DNA from: a virus
IMG/VR virus record: IMGVR_UViG_3300007540_000010
Span: 1-26,062 of that record
Length of the DNA stretch: 26,062 nucleotides
Reading direction: 5' to 3' (one strand)
Shown: in pieces, positions 502-26,062 of the stretch
Numbering within the stretch: position 1 is the stretch's first letter
Layout: the number at the start of each line of letters is the position of its first letter
The notes under the pieces: generated by a model
What the model saw: the letters and a program-made list of their open reading frames with translations, nothing else
The model's database searches: none
Told to the model about the DNA's origin: nothing
Translations under genes and position numbers: made by a program

Positions 502-681
502 TTAGTCTTCGCTTGGCTTTAGTACAACAGGCTCATCTAGGGTTACAAAGTCCGCTTCGGAATATGTCCAGTTGTCTTCACCGTCTTCTGGTTCAACATA
601 TATTTCAAAGTCTCCACTTGAGTTCTTTGTGTATTTGACTGCACCGTCTGTCCATACTGCTGTGTTATCAATTCTCTTCAT
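502..681 (-). CDS. Hypothetical small acidic protein, 59 aa
   Basis: A short acidic protein beginning MKRIDNTAVW, with an acidic middle (EPEDGEDNW) and C-terminus (KPSED). I chose the ATG at 681 because GGAG lies about nine bases upstream. The longer frame that begins at 702 has no better ribosome site. It overlaps the end of the small terminase gene by 14 bp in another frame, which is typical of compact phage operons. No family is recognised. The size and acidity could fit a DNA-mimic or small regulatory protein, but nothing in the sequence demonstrates that. Confidence 0.65.
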   Translation of the reverse strand: MKRIDNTAVWTDGAVKYTKNSSGDFEIYVEPEDGEDNWTYSEADFVTLDEPVVLKPSED

Positions 682-1081
682 CGTGTTCTTCTCCAATTTC
701 AACTGTGTTGTCTGATTCTACCCAAGGTAGAGGTGCTGAGCCTTCTCCTTGTGCAGGTTCACTGGTCATGCCCAATAGATTCTTGGCAAGGAATATTTGC
801 ACTGCGGCATTCATATTTGAGCAGGCATTCTTAAACATTGCACGTCTAAGTTTAATCTTCATAACCTCTCTGCCTTTTACAAGTTCAGCCGCAAAATTAC
901 GACTGATAGCGTCTTCTTTTACTCCAAAGAAGTTGGCGATCTCTTTGTTGTTGCAACCAAGAGCAGCAAGTTCTTCTACTTGATCCTGAGGTACAATTGT
1001 GTTGTCTCTACCAACTGGCAATCCAACTATAGTACCTTCAGTGGGTGCTTTTGGCTTTGGTCCTGTTTTTGCTTTTTCCAT
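668..1081 (-). CDS. terS: Terminase small subunit (putative)
   Basis: A 137-residue protein with a proline/lysine-rich start (GPKPKAPTEG), then a helix-turn-helix-like segment (about residues 38-60, including NKEIANFFGVKEDAISRNF). It is followed by a basic helix and an AAVQIFLAKNLLGM segment that matches the usual C-terminal part of phage small terminase DNA-recognition domains. Small terminases bind the packaging site and hand DNA to the large subunit. On the joined circle this gene lies about 2.5 kb upstream of terL, separated by accessory genes. The ATG at 1081 has no Shine-Dalgarno; instead AATAAATA sits exactly five bases before it, so a leaderless late mRNA is predicted. The assignment rests on recognised sequence style rather than on a profile search. 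Confidence 0.75.
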   Translation of the reverse strand: MEKAKTGPKPKAPTEGTIVGLPVGRDNTIVPQDQVEELAALGCNNKEIANFFGVKEDAISRNFAAELVKGREVMKIKLRRAMFKNACSNMNAAVQIFLAKNLLGMTSEPAQGEGSAPLPWVESDNTVEIGEEHDEEN

Positions 1082-1086
1082 ACAAT

Positions 1087-1094
1087 TATTTATT
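1087..1094 (-). promoter_or_regulatory. NATAAATA late-promoter-like motif before terS
   Basis: The minus strand reads AATAAATA, then ATTGT, then the ATG of terS. With T4 late-promoter spacing (octamer at -13 to -6) the start point would be the A of the ATG. The same layout precedes the genes starting at 2893 and 25354. Confidence 0.55.
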
Positions 1095-1262
1095 CTTTTT
1101 TGAGAATTATGGTTGTTTTATGGCAGATTGCCGGCCCGGTTTCATATTCCCTAAGACGGCTGTGCCGTGTTCTCTTGACGAAGTCGTTCTCTCTGCCAAG
1201 AGAATGAGTCTCAGACGAAATATCAAATACCTCACCTGAAAGGTGTGTTTGTTATGAACTAA
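1095..1262. other. Hairpin-rich non-coding region between divergent transcription units
   Basis: No convincing gene is present here. On the plus strand I see ACGGC-TGT-GCCGT (1156-1168), TTCTCTTG (1170-1177) pairing with CAAGAGAA (1197-1204) around an inner ACGA-AG-TCGT, GTCTCAGAC near 1208-1216, and CACCT-GAA-AGGTG (1233-1245). The density of inverted repeats in 170 bases between divergent promoters suggests operators, a structured transcript, or part of a replication origin. A minus-strand frame (1107-1322) covers it but has no ribosome site and looks spurious. Confidence 0.5.
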
Positions 1263-1298
1263 AGTTCTAAGTAGTTCTATAGTTCTAAGTAGTTCTAT
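1256..1298. repeat. Tandem 18-bp direct repeats with palindromic edge
   Basis: AGTTCTAAGTAGTTCTAT is repeated twice without a gap (1263-1280 and 1281-1298), giving four AGTTCTA units starting at 1263, 1273, 1281 and 1291. The first unit also forms the palindrome GAACT-AA-AGTTC with 1256-1260. The array ends 17 bases upstream of the -35 of the plus-strand promoter. It could be an activator or repressor array, or iterons of an origin. Confidence 0.8.
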
Positions 1299-1315
1299 AT
1301 AAACACCACTTTTTC

Positions 1316-1353
1316 TTGACAAAGCATAAATACTAGTGTATACTTAATGTATA
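1316..1353 (+). promoter_or_regulatory. Sigma70-type promoter with overlapping palindromic operator
   Basis: TTGACA at 1316-1321, a 17-bp spacer and TATACT at 1339-1344 form a near-perfect sigma70 promoter for the two plus-strand genes. TATACTTAATGTATA (1339-1353, five-base arms) covers the -10 and start region and recurs exactly at the minus-strand promoter near 25636-25650. A CATAAATA octamer (1325-1332) lies inside the spacer. Confidence 0.85.
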
Positions 1354-1373: not shown

Positions 1374-1862
1374 ATGGCAACCCCAAACACCCTAGACAAT
1401 TTCAGCCTTTTCTTATGGAGCAATCCTGAAGGCTATCATATAACTGTGACCACCAACTACAACACCCCAACTGAAAAGCGCAGTTTTTTTAGCTTTGGTA
1501 AACAAACTTATAAAAGTTGGAGAGCATTTAACCTACATCAACCTGAACCCTTACGAGAGTTTTTTAGCAAGTTTAAAGGCGACAACAAAGCAATTAAAGA
1601 AATAGGCAATGACTATTGGATCAGCAAACTAGCAGTGAATACTGGATCAAAAGGAAGACGTACTGCCCCAGGTGCAATGATACTAATTGATGACAACGGT
1701 ACATTTAGATTTAAGTTAAGCCTTGCACAACACACGTTTGGTGGTGAGTTTGACGCCAGCACACTCAGTGACAAGCAGCGCAAAGGAGCTAAAGGCATGT
1801 GCCTTGGCAGTTATATTTGGAAAGAAGATACAGAAATTGACGACTATGCGGAGGCATTCTAA
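1374..1862 (+). CDS. Hypothetical protein, 162 aa, first gene of plus-strand early unit
   Basis: I do not recognise this protein. I chose ATG 1374, preceded by GGAG at seven bases. The upstream in-frame ATG at 1347 lies inside the promoter and could not be in the transcript. The product is soluble-looking, basic and rich in aromatics and lysine: a beta-like N-terminal half (FSLFLWSNPEGYHITV), a basic KGRRTAPGAMILIDDNGTF middle, and an acidic tail (EDTEIDDYAEAF). It shares one nucleotide (TAATG) with the next gene, so the two are coupled. The strong sigma70 promoter, the tandem repeats upstream and the opposite orientation to all structural genes suggest an early role such as regulation, host takeover or replication initiation. 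No catalytic motif is visible. Confidence 0.75.
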   Translation: MATPNTLDNFSLFLWSNPEGYHITVTTNYNTPTEKRSFFSFGKQTYKSWRAFNLHQPEPLREFFSKFKGDNKAIKEIGNDYWISKLAVNTGSKGRRTAPGAMILIDDNGTFRFKLSLAQHTFGGEFDASTLSDKQRKGAKGMCLGSYIWKEDTEIDDYAEAF

Positions 1863-2431
1863 TGGAACTATTTGATGACAGCGATATAGACCGGATGATT
1901 GCTGAGTTAAATCCCGACATCAACTTTAAAACCGTGAAGCATTATGACGCTAACTGGGCTGCTCTAAAACAAGAAACAAAGCCTAAGTTTGACACCAGTC
2001 GTTGTGTTAAAACAAAAACACCTACGCTAATGCAGTTTGAAAAACATTACGGATTTGTTTACAGACGTTTTGATGGTACTAGTTGGCACACAGAACTGCG
2101 TCAAATTGATACAGAGAATAGAGTGAGAGGATTAACCGCCAGTCAAAGACTGCTAAAAGATAATATTGACACAATATTTGCTTTAAAGAACTTTGAACAT
2201 AAACTACGGTGGATAACGCCAACTAATAAAACAAGTAAAGAGTATGATCCCCGCTATCAACTGCTACAGTTTGGTTCAAGCTGGATGTGTTGTATTGATG
2301 ATGAAATATATGAAGCTAGTAACACTCGCCGCCCACCTAATAGAACGCACAAAGAAATTACTTTTAGCACTCGCCAGCAGCCAGTGTTTACTCTTGCAAG
2401 TACTAATAAGATGCTGGATAAATTGATATAA
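1862..2431 (+). CDS. Hypothetical protein, 189 aa, second gene of plus-strand early unit
   Basis: Unrecognised protein starting MELFDDSDIDRMIAEL, with an acidic N-terminus and a basic centre and C-terminus. Cysteines are few (one near residue 48, a CC pair near residue 143), so a zinc site is unlikely. A central region (KTKTPTLMQFEKHYGFVYRRFDG, quoted in part) and a threonine/arginine-rich tail (NTRRPPNRTHKEITF) could bind nucleic acid, but this is a guess. The start codon overlaps the stop of the preceding gene as TAATG. The stop is followed at once by back-to-back terminators. It is probably co-expressed early with its neighbour, and the pair is a natural place to look for the missing late activator or a replication initiator. 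Confidence 0.75.
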   Translation: MELFDDSDIDRMIAELNPDINFKTVKHYDANWAALKQETKPKFDTSRCVKTKTPTLMQFEKHYGFVYRRFDGTSWHTELRQIDTENRVRGLTASQRLLKDNIDTIFALKNFEHKLRWITPTNKTSKEYDPRYQLLQFGSSWMCCIDDEIYEASNTRRPPNRTHKEITFSTRQQPVFTLASTNKMLDKLI

Positions 2432-2584: not shown

Positions 2585-2893
2585 TTATTTATCCATTTGT
2601 GCTGTTTTTGGTTTGTTTTTGGCACCTGGAGGACGTCCTGGACCGCCGTGTCGTTGCTGTTTAGGAATCTTTAATCCTGCTTCTAATATGTGGTAATGTC
2701 TTAGTTCTACATTTGTTAAATTAAATTCACCAGTGCTAGGTGATTGATACCACTTGCAGGTTTGGCACTGTTTGCTCCAGTGCGGGTATGGTTTAATCAA
2801 TCGCTTGGTGTATACTATGCGAGTATGGTCTAACTCACAGTTGCAGTCTTCACAGTTTGGATAAGTTCTAGGTGGTAATTCTAAGTCTTTCAT
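2585..2893 (-). CDS. Zinc-ribbon/AT-hook-like protein, 102 aa
   Basis: The protein opens with a cysteine cluster, NCEDCNCELD (about residues 14-23), and a second pair, QCQTC, near residue 48, which together look like a zinc ribbon. The C-terminal third is basic and contains GGPGRPPGAKNKPK, resembling an AT-hook core (PGRPPG). DNA binding is therefore plausible, possibly as a late regulator or packaging accessory. I chose ATG 2893: GTTAAATA lies exactly five bases upstream and there is no ribosome site, as for terS and the gene at 25354. A TTG at 2908 would extend it by five residues. It is the last gene of the leftward late region; its stop codon overlaps a GATAAATA motif facing the candidate small RNA. 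Confidence 0.7.
   Translation of the reverse strand: MKDLELPPRTYPNCEDCNCELDHTRIVYTKRLIKPYPHWSKQCQTCKWYQSPSTGEFNLTNVELRHYHILEAGLKIPKQQRHGGPGRPPGAKNKPKTAQMDK
2586..2593 (-). promoter_or_regulatory. NATAAATA motif facing the candidate small RNA
   Basis: GATAAATA on the minus strand overlaps the stop codon of the zinc-ribbon gene. With T4 late-promoter spacing the start would be at 2580, at the foot of the 10-bp inverted repeat. Confidence 0.4.
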
Positions 2894-2898
2894 GCAAC

Positions 2899-2906
2899 TA
2901 TTTAAC
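2899..2906 (-). promoter_or_regulatory. Late-promoter-like motif (one mismatch) before zinc-ribbon gene
   Basis: The minus strand reads GTTAAATA, then GTTGC, then the ATG at 2893. The spacing equals that before terS and before the gene at 25354; the second base of the octamer differs from NATAAATA. Confidence 0.45.
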
Positions 2907-2926: not shown

Positions 2927-3169
2927 TTAAATTGGCATACTGGCAACAATAGTAGCAACTGCCCCAACTAAAGCAACAATAATAGCAACAACTCCAGTAA
3001 TTATAACTTTAGTCATTGACAGTTTGGCTGCGTGTATGCTGTCATTCAACAAATCAACTTTTGTTTCTACTTTTGAAAGTCTGTCATCCAATTGCGAATA
3101 CCTCACTGCACACAAGTCAACGTGTGCTTCAAGACTGGTGCGTTCGTGTGTTGTGGTTTCATTTAACAT
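2927..3169 (-). CDS. Holin-like small membrane protein (XhlA-like), 80 aa
   Basis: Residues 1-50 are polar and look like a coiled coil (LDDRLSKVETKVDLLNDSIH). Residues about 54-78 form one hydrophobic segment (VIITGVVAIIVALVGAVATI) ending near the C-terminus. This architecture, an N-terminal coil followed by one C-terminal membrane helix in about 80 residues, is that of XhlA-type haemolysin/holin accessory proteins, so a role in lysis or membrane association is likely. The start overlaps the stop of the preceding fibre gene (TGATG). No endolysin is recognisable next to it or elsewhere, so the lysis assignment is not supported by context and could be wrong; a tail-anchored structural protein is the alternative. 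Confidence 0.6.
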   Translation of the reverse strand: MLNETTTHERTSLEAHVDLCAVRYSQLDDRLSKVETKVDLLNDSIHAAKLSMTKVIITGVVAIIVALVGAVATIVASMPI

Positions 3170-8624: not shown

Positions 8625-9014
8625 TTAGTCTAGGCTGATAGTTAGGTTGCCAGTTGAAATTTGGAAAGTATCTCCAGTTTCAATGGTCTTACTTGTAGTA
8701 ACTGCACCATGGAACAATAGGTTGCCTGCTGCTGAAGCATCATACAACGAAATGTGTGTAATAGTACCCCAGTTGCCTGTTGCTGCATCAAACGTAATTG
8801 TTGCGTCTGTTGAAGCTGAGCCAGCTGCTGCTGCTGCAAAACTTGCTACTTTGCGAGTATAACCGTTGCCAGTTATTTCGTTTGCACCTGAGTTGTCGTC
8901 TGATGGGCTACCTGTGTGTAAGCCAACATAAACACCTGCTGGTGCTGTGTATGGTGTTGTTGCTAGAGCATGGTCTAGTAATTTTAGTTCTAAATAATCT
9001 GAAGCTGCCGCCAT
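8625..9014 (-). CDS. Tail fibre/tip structural protein, 129 aa
   Basis: The sequence follows a family widespread in phages of this type: DYLELKLLDHAL at the N-terminus, VYVGLHTGSP, a GNGYTRK segment, ATGNWGTITHISLYDA, and LLFHGAVTTSKTI near the C-terminus. Members are annotated as tail fibre or minor structural proteins of about 130 residues; this one has the usual length. A ribosome site (AAAGGAG) precedes ATG 9014. It is the first gene of the fibre module, with a NATAAATA motif and a 60-base structured leader upstream, and likely the first product of a separate late transcript. No enzymatic motif is visible. Confidence 0.75.
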   Translation of the reverse strand: MAAASDYLELKLLDHALATTPYTAPAGVYVGLHTGSPSDDNSGANEITGNGYTRKVASFAAAAAGSASTDATITFDAATGNWGTITHISLYDASAAGNLLFHGAVTTSKTIETGDTFQISTGNLTISLD

Positions 9015-9079: not shown

Positions 9080-9087
9080 TATTTATA
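9080..9087 (-). promoter_or_regulatory. NATAAATA late-promoter-like motif before fibre operon
   Basis: Exact TATAAATA on the minus strand in the 112-bp gap between the hub gene and the first fibre gene. T4 spacing would put the start at 9074, at the base of the 5' leader palindrome. Confidence 0.55.
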
Positions 9088-18283: not shown

Positions 18284-18460
18284 TTAATCTCCTGTTCTTT
18301 CAATCATTTTGTTAGCAAGTACAACTAAGAAGTTTAATCTTGAAGTTGCCTTGGTAATATCTCTTTTAGCACAAGCGATTTCGTTGCTTGCTTTTGCTGT
18401 TTCTGCAATTATACTCTGCAAGAGTTCTGTATCTGTTTTATTTTCTATTAAATCTTTCAT
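18284..18460 (-). CDS. Small helical protein before tail chaperones, 58 aa
   Basis: An ORF below common length cut-offs. It begins MKDLIENKTDTELLQS, is predicted wholly helical, and ends NKMIERTGD. ATG 18460 has a good AGGA ribosome site at about seven bases. Its end supplies the GGAG for the chaperone gene, which begins three bases after its stop. Codon use and coupling support a real gene. Position between the major tail protein and the chaperones suggests a tail assembly accessory role; I recognise no family. A promoter-like GCTAAATA lies just upstream, after a terminator hairpin. Confidence 0.75.
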   Translation of the reverse strand: MKDLIENKTDTELLQSIIAETAKASNEIACAKRDITKATSRLNFLVVLANKMIERTGD

Positions 18461-18477
18461 CTTTTAATCCTACATTG

Positions 18478-18485
18478 TATTTAGC
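18478..18485 (-). promoter_or_regulatory. Late-promoter-like motif (one mismatch) before tail module
   Basis: GCTAAATA on the minus strand differs from NATAAATA at its second base only. With T4 spacing the start would be 18472, giving a 12-base leader carrying the AGGA ribosome site of the 58-codon gene. It directly follows the hairpin at 18499-18516. Confidence 0.4.
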
Positions 18486-20783: not shown

Positions 20784-21464
20784 TTATAACAAGCCACGTT
20801 GTTTGGCTTGGGCATATAGTTTTCTGTGTTCAGGATTGCTTAGGTCCATTTTAGAAAGATCAAAACCATCAACAGCATTAGTGCCTTGACTGCTTTTAGT
20901 ATTAGATGTTGCAGGTGTAGGTTGAACAAAATGCGGATTCGCATCTAAGAATTCTCTAACAAGGTCGTCAACACCAACTGGTGCTCCTGAATCATTGTAG
21001 CGAACTGCTCCTGTATTATCAACTACTTCTACATCACCATCTTCATTAAGTCTTACATTTCTTGCAAGTAAATTTTGCACTTGCTCAGGGTTGACACTTT
21101 TATATTTTGCTGCTGTGTTTAGCAACGGTGTGTTAACCTTGTATTCCTTAATAATACTGTCTCTCTTTTGGATTTCACTATCCTTTTTTGAAGCAAGTTC
21201 TTGTAGAGTCTTTTCAAACTCTCCACGCTTGAGTTGTTCTTCTTGTCTGCGCTGTTCTTCAGCGGTTTTAAGTTGTTTCAACTCTGTAGGATCACCTAAG
21301 CCTTCATAAGGTTTAAGCAGTTTCTTTTCCAACGATCCGCGCATACGGGCCATCATATTATCAACTTCATCCTGTGTGTAAGATCTTGTTTCTTGAGCCT
21401 GATTTTCAGTTTGTGCTGCTGCATCAGTTGCAGTGTTTGTAGCCAATGTTTCAGTATGGTCCAT
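20784..21464 (-). CDS. Scaffolding protein, 226 aa
   Basis: An acidic, charged, largely helical protein without cysteine. Glu/Gln-rich N-terminus, then DEVDNMMARMRGSLEKKLLK, a coiled coil (EEQRRQEEQLKRGEFEKTLQ), a middle VNPEQVQNLLARNVRLNEDG, and a C-terminal helix that ends NPEHRKLYAQAKQRGLL. This is the usual profile of scaffolding proteins, which guide procapsid assembly and leave the head. It lies just before the major capsid gene. AAGGAGG precedes ATG 21464. An NATAAATA motif about 70 bases upstream suggests a late start for the capsid genes. Confidence 0.82.
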   Translation of the reverse strand: MDHTETLATNTATDAAAQTENQAQETRSYTQDEVDNMMARMRGSLEKKLLKPYEGLGDPTELKQLKTAEEQRRQEEQLKRGEFEKTLQELASKKDSEIQKRDSIIKEYKVNTPLLNTAAKYKSVNPEQVQNLLARNVRLNEDGDVEVVDNTGAVRYNDSGAPVGVDDLVREFLDANPHFVQPTPATSNTKSSQGTNAVDGFDLSKMDLSNPEHRKLYAQAKQRGLL

Positions 21465-21534
21465 TGTTAACCTCGCCTCCTTGTTAGAGTATGTTTGTTG
21501 TACAGTTATTTAGCAGATTGCTTAATAATCGTAT

Positions 21535-21542
21535 TATTTATG
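21535..21542 (-). promoter_or_regulatory. NATAAATA late-promoter-like motif before scaffold/capsid genes
   Basis: Exact CATAAATA on the minus strand, overlapping the end of the 21-codon basic ORF. T4 spacing puts the start at 21529, 65 bases before the scaffold ATG. A second TAAATA lies downstream near 21507-21512. Confidence 0.5.
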
Positions 21543-23304: not shown

Positions 23305-24546
23305 TTAAGATATTTTGTGTCCCCAACGGGCTGGTTGCTCTGTTTGTGCGACTGTTTTTCTAATAGGATACATAAACGCCACGCAATAACTCAAGGCATC
23401 AAACATATGGTCGTATCCTGAGTCTTTGTCCGGAACCATAGTACCTTCTTTAAACTGGTGCTTGTCTAAACACTCTATCGTATATTTAGCTGTCTTTGCT
23501 ATATAGAGGTTAACTTTACCGTCTGCTGAACGAAAACGTGCGTTAATGGCGTTTATTCTATCCCTTACTGGGTCGTGCTTGCGCGGTGCTTTTACTACAA
23601 AGCCTGCGTTTTGTAGTATCAAGTGGTCACTCATTCCACTACTTGACGTTTGTCTTCTACTGCCACTAGGGTCAGGATAAACAAACACTTTTGAATTTGG
23701 ATATCTACGTTTGATTTCCATGCTCATTTCGTCTGTGTTTGAGGCAAACATCTGTATCTCATCAATTACAGTGAGTGTTTGTGCATCCATTTGAACACTT
23801 ATGGTTGCCACAGCTGGGTTAATGTTGAAGTCCATGCCCACGTGTATGATACTGGTGTTTGCTTGTTTGGGTTCGTCTATTACATGAACGTCTCTGGCAA
23901 ATGCCCATGCTACTCTGTTTTCATATGTTTCAAAAGTAGCAAGGAATTCTTGATTGAACTGTCTCTCACTCATATCCTGCCGGGCTGCTAGTATTTCTTG
24001 CTCAGTAACAAAGCCACCTTGAACTGTTGTGAATTGAAATGCACTCCAGTCTGTGAGTTCTTTTGCACTAACGTACAAGTCATAGAATGGATTGCTTTTG
24101 CCTTTGGGTGTTCCAATAAACAGTGCACCACCTTGTTGATCCGCTAGTGCAGGACGAACAATCTCACCCCATAGGCTTTCTAGTTTACATTCAGCAGCTT
24201 CATCTATCACAGCATAACTTAGACTTACACCACGTAGTTTGTCAGGATCTTCTGCACCCTTGAGACTTATAGTGCTTCCATTCTTGAGTAGTATACTAAG
24301 TTCACTTTCATTAATCTTACTTACCCAGCGTAGGTCCAGGAGTCTACGTTTGAGAGGCTTCCAAAGAATCATCTTGGCCGCTCTATAACTTGTAGTAATG
24401 TAGAATATCTCTTGATTGGGTACTCTAGCCCTATAACAGATTTCACGCATACTAAGATAAGTTTTACCAAAGCGTCTACCTGCTACAACTACCTTGAAAC
24501 GACTAGAGTTGTCTGCTACAGTTTGCTGAGGATTACTAAGCTTCAT
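23305..24546 (-). CDS. terL: Terminase large subunit, 413 aa
   Basis: The packaging motor. The ATPase domain has Walker A VAGRRFGKT (residues about 21-29), Walker B AVIDEA (112-117) with catalytic Glu116, and a motif C-like FIGTPKGKS (143-151). The nuclease domain shows HVGMDFNINPAV (Asp239), a second acid in YPDPSG (Asp292) and GYDHMFDALSY (Asp379, Asp383), the metal-binding acids of the RNase H-like fold. It is somewhat short for the family but complete. The start overlaps the previous stop (ATGA). Packaging mode (cos or headful) cannot be decided from the sequence. Confidence 0.95.
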   Translation of the reverse strand: MKLSNPQQTVADNSSRFKVVVAGRRFGKTYLSMREICYRARVPNQEIFYITTSYRAAKMILWKPLKRRLLDLRWVSKINESELSILLKNGSTISLKGAEDPDKLRGVSLSYAVIDEAAECKLESLWGEIVRPALADQQGGALFIGTPKGKSNPFYDLYVSAKELTDWSAFQFTTVQGGFVTEQEILAARQDMSERQFNQEFLATFETYENRVAWAFARDVHVIDEPKQANTSIIHVGMDFNINPAVATISVQMDAQTLTVIDEIQMFASNTDEMSMEIKRRYPNSKVFVYPDPSGSRRQTSSSGMSDHLILQNAGFVVKAPRKHDPVRDRINAINARFRSADGKVNLYIAKTAKYTIECLDKHQFKEGTMVPDKDSGYDHMFDALSYCVAFMYPIRKTVAQTEQPARWGHKIS

Positions 24547-24737: not shown

Positions 24738-25083
24738 CACGGTTCCTCTTTTTAATATCACTGAAGTGCTTGCGGCGGCTAACAACTTCAACATTGGAAA
24801 GGTGCCAACCCTCTCCTGGAGTTATTTGTTGCATACACATATTGTCAGCACGTCTTCCACGTGCAAACCAGTCTTCATCACTCCACATTGTTTGCCATTC
24901 TTCAAGAGTTAGTGTGTACTCTTCATTGCGGTAATTAGCTTGTGCTTTATGCTTGAGGTATCCATAGTGCTTGTCATGTGCAATTCTGCAAGGTCCTGTT
25001 TGCCAAGATTCAGGGTCTGGATTGCGTCCACGTTTGCCTGGACCTCCCACTGTCTCAGGGGCATATCTAAATTTATAAGTCAT
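24727..25083 (-). CDS. HNH-like accessory protein next to terL, 118 aa
   Basis: ATG 25083 is chosen over the longer frame because the upstream part overlaps another gene. The protein starts MTYKFRYAPETVGGPGKRGR, has a Tyr/Lys-rich middle (HDKHYGYLKHKAQANYRNEE), then DEDWFARGRRADNMCMQQI and GEGWHLSNVEVVSRRKH. The last two segments match the second half of HNH-type phage endonucleases (RGR-x-L-x-R followed by G-W-x-x-x-N-V-x-V), but the expected His-Asn-His residues are not clear, so it may be a non-catalytic relative. It lies in the terL transcript; an HNH partner of terminase is known in other phages. Role inferred. Confidence 0.55.
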   Translation of the reverse strand: MTYKFRYAPETVGGPGKRGRNPDPESWQTGPCRIAHDKHYGYLKHKAQANYRNEEYTLTLEEWQTMWSDEDWFARGRRADNMCMQQITPGEGWHLSNVEVVSRRKHFSDIKKRNRDVQ

Positions 25084-25354
25084 TGTGAGTGCCTTTGGGT
25101 TTATAGGTTGGTGTATATGTTCTCTGACGTCCATATGGCATTGTGCGCCAGCCAGCATTGTCAGGAGTCCAACCTTTGCTCCAGTCATCTCTACAGAACT
25201 GATCCGTAGGGTTCTTTCTTGGACCAAGTTCATTGAGCCAAGTTTCAAAGTCTTGCCAGTCAGGATGTATGTGTAAGTCTAGTTCACGTGCTTTGTTGAA
25301 TGCGTTATACCACACACGCCATTCAAGCAAGTATTCTTTTCTAAGATTGTTCAT
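25073..25354 (-). CDS. Degenerate HNH-like protein, first gene of terL module, 93 aa
   Basis: A Trp-rich protein: YLLEWRVWYNAFNKARELDL, DWQDFETWLNELGPRKNPTD, then CRDDWSKGWTPDNAGWRTMP. The order ...FxxWLxxLGPRP...RxDxxxG(Y/W)xPxNxxWR is that of the small HNH endonucleases found in many phages, but the catalytic histidines are missing, so nuclease activity is doubtful. The ATG at 25354 has no ribosome site and lies exactly five bases after TATAAATA, predicting a leaderless late mRNA. It follows the terminator of the preceding module and is therefore the first gene of a long late transcript. Confidence 0.6.
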   Translation of the reverse strand: MNNLRKEYLLEWRVWYNAFNKARELDLHIHPDWQDFETWLNELGPRKNPTDQFCRDDWSKGWTPDNAGWRTMPYGRQRTYTPTYKPKGTHNDL

Positions 25355-25359
25355 ACAAG

Positions 25360-25367
25360 TATTTATA
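25360..25367 (-). promoter_or_regulatory. NATAAATA late-promoter-like motif before terL module
   Basis: Exact TATAAATA on the minus strand, followed by CTTGT and the ATG at 25354. It lies just after a strong terminator. T4 spacing puts the start at the A of the ATG. Confidence 0.6.
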
Positions 25368-25387: not shown

Positions 25388-25413
25388 AAAAAAAGGCTCT
25401 AGGGAGCCTTTTT
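25388..25413 (-). terminator. Strong intrinsic terminator after lipoprotein gene
   Basis: A perfect 10-bp stem, AAAAAGGCTC (25390-25399) with GAGCCTTTTT (25404-25413), a four-base loop and seven Ts on the minus strand. The lipoprotein stop codon (25401-25399) lies at the loop edge. A-runs on the other side make it potentially bidirectional. Confidence 0.9.
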
Positions 25414-25614
25414 AATGTAACCTAAGGGTGTACCGTCTGGATTGTATATTACTATTCTTTCACTTGCACTACAGAAACTTGGAGCAGCGGTGTGATTAAT
25501 AGCTGCTTGCAAGCATGGGTCCTGACTGTCATAGTAGTTTGCGATAGTGTTACAGCCTGTGAGACTGAGCATCACAAACACTAAAATTAAAAATAATATG
25601 GGTAGGTATTTCAT
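25399..25614 (-). CDS. Small lipoprotein, 71 aa
   Basis: The N-terminus is a lipoprotein signal: MKYLP, a hydrophobic core (ILFLILVFVMLSL) and the lipobox LTGC with Cys21 as the lipid site. The next residue is Asn, not Asp, so outer-membrane sorting is likely. The mature part (about 50 residues) contains YYDSQDPC, PSFCSASERIVIYNPDG and a terminal GYIKKAP, with two further cysteines that may form a disulfide. A strong sigma70-type promoter sits just upstream and a strong terminator overlaps the stop, so it can be made alone and probably early. That fits a superinfection-exclusion lipoprotein better than an Rz1-like lysis protein, but neither is proven. Confidence 0.8.
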   Translation of the reverse strand: MKYLPILFLILVFVMLSLTGCNTIANYYDSQDPCLQAAINHTAAPSFCSASERIVIYNPDGTPLGYIKKAP

Positions 25615-25635: not shown

Positions 25636-25672
25636 TATACATTAAGTATAGCATCTATACACTGTTTGTCAA
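25636..25672 (-). promoter_or_regulatory. Sigma70-type promoter with palindromic operator, lipoprotein gene
   Basis: On the minus strand TTGACA (25672-25667), a 16-base spacer and TATACT (25650-25645). The palindrome TATACTTAATGTATA (25650-25636) covers the -10 and start region, identical to that at 1339-1353. The -35 encodes the final residues of the SegE-like gene. Confidence 0.85.
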
Positions 25673-26062
25673 CCTTTTTAAACCGCTTGCATTTATTCTA
25701 CAACTAATGAATTCATTGTAGTAGGTGTCATCGTACAACACGTTCAAGTCAAATTGCAGCTTGGTTTCCCAGTATGCCATCATTGTTTTGTTTGCACATA
25801 GGTGCAGGATCTCTCGTGTTATTGTATGTGGTTCAAGTTTCTCAATGTCTGCACTGAGTGTCTTGCTGCTTCCGTAATACCGTTGCCAATCCGTTTCAAT
25901 GCGACTATGCCGCTTATTGGACTTACCTTTGAGGGGCTTGCGTTTGAGGATGCTCCACAAGTTCTTTTTACCTATATACTTCATTTGATTTGAAGTGTTA
26001 GTAATACAATAAACAAACCCTTGATATTCTTCAGGGGCAGTTGTAAAAGGTTTGTCTTGGTA
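25655..26062 (-). CDS. GIY-YIG nuclease (SegE-like), C-terminal part with repeated junction segment
   Basis: This is the rest of the gene starting at 135; the bases 25940-26062 repeat 1-123, so only 25939-25655 are additional. The joined protein has 139 residues. After the KYIGKKN strand it contains a basic loop (KRKPLKGKSNKR), RIETDWQRYYGSSKTLSADI, ITREILHLCANKTMMAYWET and a final YDDTYYNEFISCRINASGL. These match SegE-like GIY-YIG endonucleases, in which W-x-x-YYGS and the terminal YYNxFI-x-C-R/K are conserved. The end of the gene overlaps the -35 of the lipoprotein promoter. Window truncation only; no sign of inactivation. Confidence 0.85.
   Translation of the reverse strand, partial: YQDKPFTTAPEEYQGFVYCITNTSNQMKYIGKKNLWSILKRKPLKGKSNKRHSRIETDWQRYYGSSKTLSADIEKLEPHTITREILHLCANKTMMAYWETKLQFDLNVLYDDTYYNEFISCRINASGLKRLTNSV
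25940..26062. repeat. Terminal direct repeat, right copy
   Basis: Identical to bases 1-123. See the left copy. Confidence 0.95.

Follow-up and report, generated by a model that had tools for sequence, protein, structure and literature searches.

Late promoters predicted to yield leaderless mRNAs in small aquatic tailed phages

How are the late genes of a small tailed phage transcribed and translated when three of them carry a T4-style late promoter octamer exactly five bases before ATG and no Shine-Dalgarno sequence? The question arose from a preliminary description of IMG/VR virus record IMGVR_UViG_3300007540_000010 (26,062 nucleotides, all of which were analysed and are referred to as the window). 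It proposed that terS, a zinc-ribbon gene and an HNH-like gene share an octamer followed by a five-base linker conforming to NTTGY, and that the first genes of these late units are translated from leaderless transcripts. On the minus strand we found AATAAATA-ATTGT-ATG (1094-1079), GTTAAATA-GTTGC-ATG (2906-2891) and TATAAATA-CTTGT-ATG (25367-25352), so the observation is confirmed. The pattern TAAATANNTGNATG has 3 matches in the window compared to 0.02 expected from shuffled sequences, none of which reached 3, although the pattern was chosen after seeing the data. What the sites share is the hexamer TAAATA plus its spacing rather than one octamer, as the first two letters vary. The NTTGY linker is a local feature: among 61 non-redundant relatives only -1 (55 T, 6 C) and -2 (G in 30 of 61) are conserved. 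In that set, selected on a strict TAAATA, -12 is A in 39 of 61 and -13 is variable, in keeping with an octamer TATAAATA or NATAAATA. The contrast in ribosome-binding sites also holds, since most other called genes in the window have a Shine-Dalgarno match of 4 nt or more whereas these three have none. A less biased count comes from relatives: at gene starts in 19 small genomes, TAAATA occurs 32 times at spacing 4-5, compared to a mean of 1.7 (maximum 9) for the other 14 hexamers of the same composition.

To determine what kind of virus carries these sites, we examined the gene content and the ends of the window. An exact 123-base direct terminal repeat closes the contig into a circle of 25,939 bp. 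The genes are those of a non-T4 tailed phage, with terS, terL, portal, scaffold, MCP and tail genes; the head and terminase families differ from those of T4-like phages. A nucleotide search of known phages gave no match, Rfam and tRNA searches returned nothing, and a search for the host through terL in bacterial genomes returned two distant fragments (37% and 35%) and identified no host. The nearest named terL relatives are phage DSL-LC06 (45% identity) and, among others, Pelagibacter phages such as HTVC202P (41%). IMG/VR holds many relatives of 24-30 kb, of which three (G008, G010 and G016; G and L numbers are our labels for the genomes, contigs and orthologs compared) also have exact terminal repeats of 55-127 bp. 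Repeat lengths of 123-127 in three of the four repeat-ended genomes look like assembly overlap of circular molecules. A SegE-type GIY-YIG gene at the end of the window has homologs in the T4-like phage Syn33 (36%) and in the promoter-bearing contigs L201 and L232 (45-48%), suggesting a possible exchange with T4-like phages.

Coordinates of promoters, genes and other elements in the 26,062-nt window
Feature	Coordinates	Strand	Sequence	Remarks
Direct terminal repeat	1-123 and 25940-26062			Identical copies
terS-like small terminase subunit	668-1081	-		phrog_309, E 2.4e-9; predicted mRNA starts at A 1081
Late promoter octamer of terS	1087-1094	-	AATAAATA	Spacing 5 to ATG; predicted leaderless
Upstream element of the terS promoter	1117-1124	-	GCCATAAA	-43 to -36
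Region without a convincing gene	1107-1322			About 230 bases between the + strand sigma-70 promoter and terS; 18-bp direct repeats at 1259-1294; candidate packaging or origin region
Sigma-70 promoter before the + strand genes	1316-1344	+	TTGACA-N17-TATACT	11 of 12 matches
Palindrome-like sequence over the -10 element	1339-1353	+	TATACTTAATGTATA	Likely shared operator
Unknown gene	1374-1862	+		Sigma-70 promoter; one homolog only (G005)
Unknown gene	1862-2431	+		No homolog found
Zinc-ribbon protein	2585-2893	-		GRPPGAKNK tail
Late promoter octamer of the zinc-ribbon gene	2899-2906	-	GTTAAATA	Spacing 5
Upstream element of the zinc-ribbon promoter	2929-2936	-	GCCAATTT	-43 to -36
Octamer upstream of head protein gene 8625-9014	9080-9087	-	TATAAATA	Leadered class
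Octamer of the 58-aa gene 18284-18460	18478-18485	-	GCTAAATA	17 nt before ATG; leadered class, Shine-Dalgarno AGGA; similar sites in G003, G008 and L085
Head scaffolding protein	20784-21464	-		phrog_2303; leadered, Shine-Dalgarno AAGGAGG
Octamer of the scaffold gene	21507-21514	-	GCTAAATA	42 nt before ATG; leadered class; a second copy CATAAATA at 21535-21542
Terminase large subunit	23305-24546	-		phrog_2, E 1.4e-38
HNH-like gene	25073-25354	-		First of the unit leading to terL; predicted leaderless
Late promoter octamer of the HNH-like gene	25360-25367	-	TATAAATA	Spacing 5
Upstream element of the HNH-like gene promoter	25390-25397	-	GCCTTTTT	-43 to -36; overlaps the end of the preceding gene and its terminator-like T run
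Palindrome-like sequence over the -10 element	25636-25650	-	TATACTTAATGTATA	Identical to that at 1339-1353
Sigma-70 promoter before gene 25399-25614	25645-25672	-	TTGACA-N16-TATACT	11 of 12 matches; extended -10
SegE-type GIY-YIG gene	25655-26062			Pfam PF19835, E 1.4e-32

We next tested whether the motif and its position are conserved. Relatives lacking the motif at this spacing had been named in advance as the outcome that would overturn the leaderless reading, yet the comparison did not overturn it: TAAATA lies 4-7 nt before ATG in 40 of 53 distinct terS orthologs with a visible start, in 11 of 12 zinc-ribbon orthologs and in 4 of 7 HNH-like orthologs. In contrast, 38 of 44 scaffold orthologs and 17 of 24 scored orthologs of the 8625-9014 head gene have the motif 14-75 nt upstream together with a Shine-Dalgarno. 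The motif is absent from MCP (0 of 33) and from gene 18548 (0 of 31), which are internal to operons; among the genes compared, only those that are first in their operon carry it. In some terS orthologs without the motif (L012, L048, L053 and L058), the start overlaps or abuts an upstream stop codon (TAATG, TAATATG), as if terS had moved inside an operon, suggesting translational coupling instead.

The spacing between TAAATA and gene starts is bimodal, with 71 ATG starts at 4-6 nt, only 3 at 7-12 nt and 77 at 13-30 nt; a count by single spacing shows the same. In the close class 4 of 71 have a Shine-Dalgarno and 71 of 72 starts are ATG, compared to 53 of 77 and 77 of 98, respectively, in the far class. 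In an independent gene set, 4% (4 of 92) of the close class against 93% of the far class have a Shine-Dalgarno, although there the starts of the 13-30 class were chosen with a preference for Shine-Dalgarno sequences, a bias that the first comparison avoids. A promoter with +1 about 5-6 nt after the hexamer predicts such a distribution, as a leader of a few bases can carry no ribosome site and would spoil a leaderless start. The literature places the octamer of T4-like phages at -13 to -6, with -13 variable (PMC1524935), so that a spacing of 5 puts +1 on the A of ATG. No RNA 5′ end has been mapped, and the position of +1 rests on sequence alone. The leaderless interpretation is nevertheless well supported, since bimodal spacing, lack of a Shine-Dalgarno in the close class only and near-exclusive use of ATG are what leaderless transcripts predict. 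The preliminary description did not recognize, however, that this phage is not T4-like and has no detectable gp55, which leaves the source of the sigma factor open.

To find out which factor could read these promoters, we built a gp55 profile from 11 T4-like phages and searched six-frame translations at maximum sensitivity (hmmsearch --max). The profile recovered T4 and Pelagibacter phage HTVC008M but found nothing in the small-clade genomes, an absence that rests on a profile search and a few complete genomes. The only other hit, contig G018, was excluded because it is unrelated to the small clade (26% terL match, GC 0.51). Scans of the non-structural proteins of four circular genomes, the window and three relatives, found no recognisable replication or transcription gene, although genes of unknown function remain. 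The same scans against PHROGs and Pfam gave no hit to gp33 or to the sliding clamp gp45, but as no dedicated profile was run for either, whether these phages encode them is left undecided. The + strand genes, considered as a candidate sigma factor or initiator, had no match in PDB sequences, Pfam, PHROGs or NCBIfam. Genes conserved across the clade belong to the structural block or are terS, terL or an HNH-like gene (24727), while the + strand genes are not conserved. Yet the genome has two near-consensus sigma-70 promoters for other genes. A promoter conserved across the clade without a conserved cognate factor points to a factor from outside, either the host or another virus.

We then asked whether the same geometry occurs in T4-like phages, which differ in this respect. 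HTVC008M, which was not selected by motif, has 13 starts at spacing 4-5 compared to a mean of 0.7 for control hexamers, whereas T4 and the two cyanophages Syn33 and S-CRM01 have 0-1. Seven annotated genes of HTVC008M start at exactly this spacing, among them the baseplate wedge and DNA end protector genes. A scan of IMG/VR by promoter pattern alone retrieved T4-like late genes (DNA end protector, head maturation protease, tail tube, baseplate wedge), and 8 of 20 of the longer contigs tested carry gp55. Further leaderless sites on these contigs were not used for retrieval, but each contig was chosen through one such site.

Alignment of the sites on the octamer revealed a second element, absent from the preliminary description. 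CC starts at -43 or -42 in 42 of 74 non-redundant sites, and in 30 of 59 after removal of sites with a T run, compared to 0-12 at any other position (mostly 0-5, with a smaller rise at -32/-31). It is followed by A/T at -39 to -36 and C/G near -31, at a fixed distance from the octamer. All three sites of the window have GCC at -43 to -41. The element is also present, more weakly, in the leadered class. We considered whether it is a feature of T4-like late promoters in general and rejected this: in HTVC008M and in nine uncultured contigs, eight of them with gp55, it is at background apart from the sites used for retrieval, several of which are terminator stems. The element is specific to the small phages and may bind an activator, a factor that we could not name. 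In several relatives (terS or other late promoters of L050, L056, G016 and G017), a terminator hairpin of the preceding unit lies exactly over the CC box (-46 to -29), ending just before the octamer.

Taken together, we consider it likely that TAAATA-N5-ATG is the core of a T4-type late promoter from which transcription starts on the A of ATG, so that terS, the zinc-ribbon gene and the HNH-like gene are translated from leaderless mRNAs. In this view, the same promoter placed further upstream would give leadered, Shine-Dalgarno-bearing mRNAs for the scaffold, the 8625-9014 head gene and the 18284-18460 gene. As no gp55-like sigma is detectable in this phage or its complete relatives, we infer that the sigma acts in trans, the most economical source being a T4-like phage in the same cell, a virophage-like dependence that we put forward only tentatively. 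The motif, its spacing and conservation, the Shine-Dalgarno and ATG contrasts and the lack of a detectable gp55 come directly from the sequences, whereas promoter activity, the position of +1 and the source of the sigma are our inferences. T4-type late promoters have no sequence conservation upstream (-35). The conserved CC box, which T4 late promoters lack (PMC2988020), suggests that recognition may not be identical.

Carried further, and somewhat less likely than not, this would be a widespread clade of tailed satellite viruses of T4-like phages, a bacterial counterpart of virophages, that build their own virion but leave replication and late transcription to a T4-like helper by copying its late promoter, with the CC box binding a further factor and many late genes on both sides translated from leaderless mRNAs. 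Dependence on a helper was not examined by co-infection. If right, a T4-type late promoter that abuts the start codon is a new arrangement of a textbook promoter, and would mean that late structural genes of abundant aquatic phages, T4-like ones included, are translated from leaderless mRNA. A conserved T4-type promoter in genomes without the T4 sigma gives a direct, testable link between small structural-only phages and possible helpers, by the same kind of evidence that was used for virophages and giant viruses.

The alternative that survives best, although we find it unlikely, is that the octamer is a variant -10 element of a host sigma factor (sigma-70 or an alternative one), perhaps aided by an activator bound at the CC box; transcripts would still be leaderless, but no second virus would be needed. 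TATAAA resembles TATAAT, the CC box with a second C/G block about 11 bp on (-31) is where a class II activator would sit, and no other conserved regulator was found in the genomes. However, the octamer differs from the two near-perfect sigma-70 promoters that the same genome has for non-late genes, terS orthologs keep TAAATA and show no drift to TATAAT, and the motif equals that of gp55 phages and is shared with HTVC008M at the same spacing. Moreover, the relatives HTVC202P, HTVC026P and Vibrio phage 1.157.O lack ATAAATA-N5-ATG. Still less likely, the small phages could encode their own unrecognised late sigma or activator. Several small genes in each genome are of unknown function, including the two + strand genes behind a sigma-70 promoter, but no non-structural gene of plausible sigma type is conserved across the clade (among the genomes compared, 1862-2431 has no homolog and 1374-1862 only one) and the sensitive gp55 search found nothing. 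terS is the only conserved HTH-type candidate, and a role for it in transcription would, to our knowledge, be unprecedented. Finally, although its tight spacing to ATG and replacement of the Shine-Dalgarno could suggest a translation signal inside a longer 5′ leader, this is very unlikely because the same hexamer precedes scaffold and 8625 genes that have a Shine-Dalgarno, distances of 7-12 nt are avoided, a further element lies at a fixed distance upstream, and the motif is the late promoter of another phage group.

Comparison with known systems places these promoters closest to the T4-type late promoter (TATAAATA; gp55, gp33, gp45), with which they share the TAAATA core with A/T variation at -13, operon-first late genes and a spacing that puts +1 where T4 starts (PMC1524935, PMC2988020). 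In T4 and the cyanophages tested, the octamer stands well upstream with a leader, whereas here many copies abut the ATG, a CC box is present and no gp55 was detected. HTVC008M (Kyanoviridae) shares TAAATA-N5-ATG at 12-13 gene starts but has a 147-kb T4-like genome with its own gp55 and no CC box enrichment (1 of 13); we found no report of leaderless late genes in this phage, in other pelagiphages or in T4-like phages in the library searched. DSL-LC06 and the Pelagibacter phages HTVC202P, HTVC111P, HTVC112P and HTVC026P, the nearest named terL relatives (41-45% identity), have a similar structural block, but HTVC202P has a DnaD-type protein, nucleases and an HTH regulator, and DSL-LC06, like HTVC202P and HTVC026P, has no ATAAATA-N5-ATG. 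The DSL-LC06 paper deals with taxonomy only, and we found no mention in it of missing replication genes. The Streptomyces satellite phages MiniFlayer and MulchRoom (PMC10690885) are likewise small tailed phages that encode encapsidation machinery and lack key replication genes, and MulchRoom carries a GIY-YIG endonuclease, as does the window. Their helper dependence was shown by culture, whereas here it is inferred, and we found no shared late promoter reported for them. Virophages (Sputnik with mimivirus, Mavirus with CroV) are small viruses with their own capsid whose genes carry the late promoter of a large virus (PMC6723459); they are unrelated viruses of eukaryotes and serve as an analogy only.
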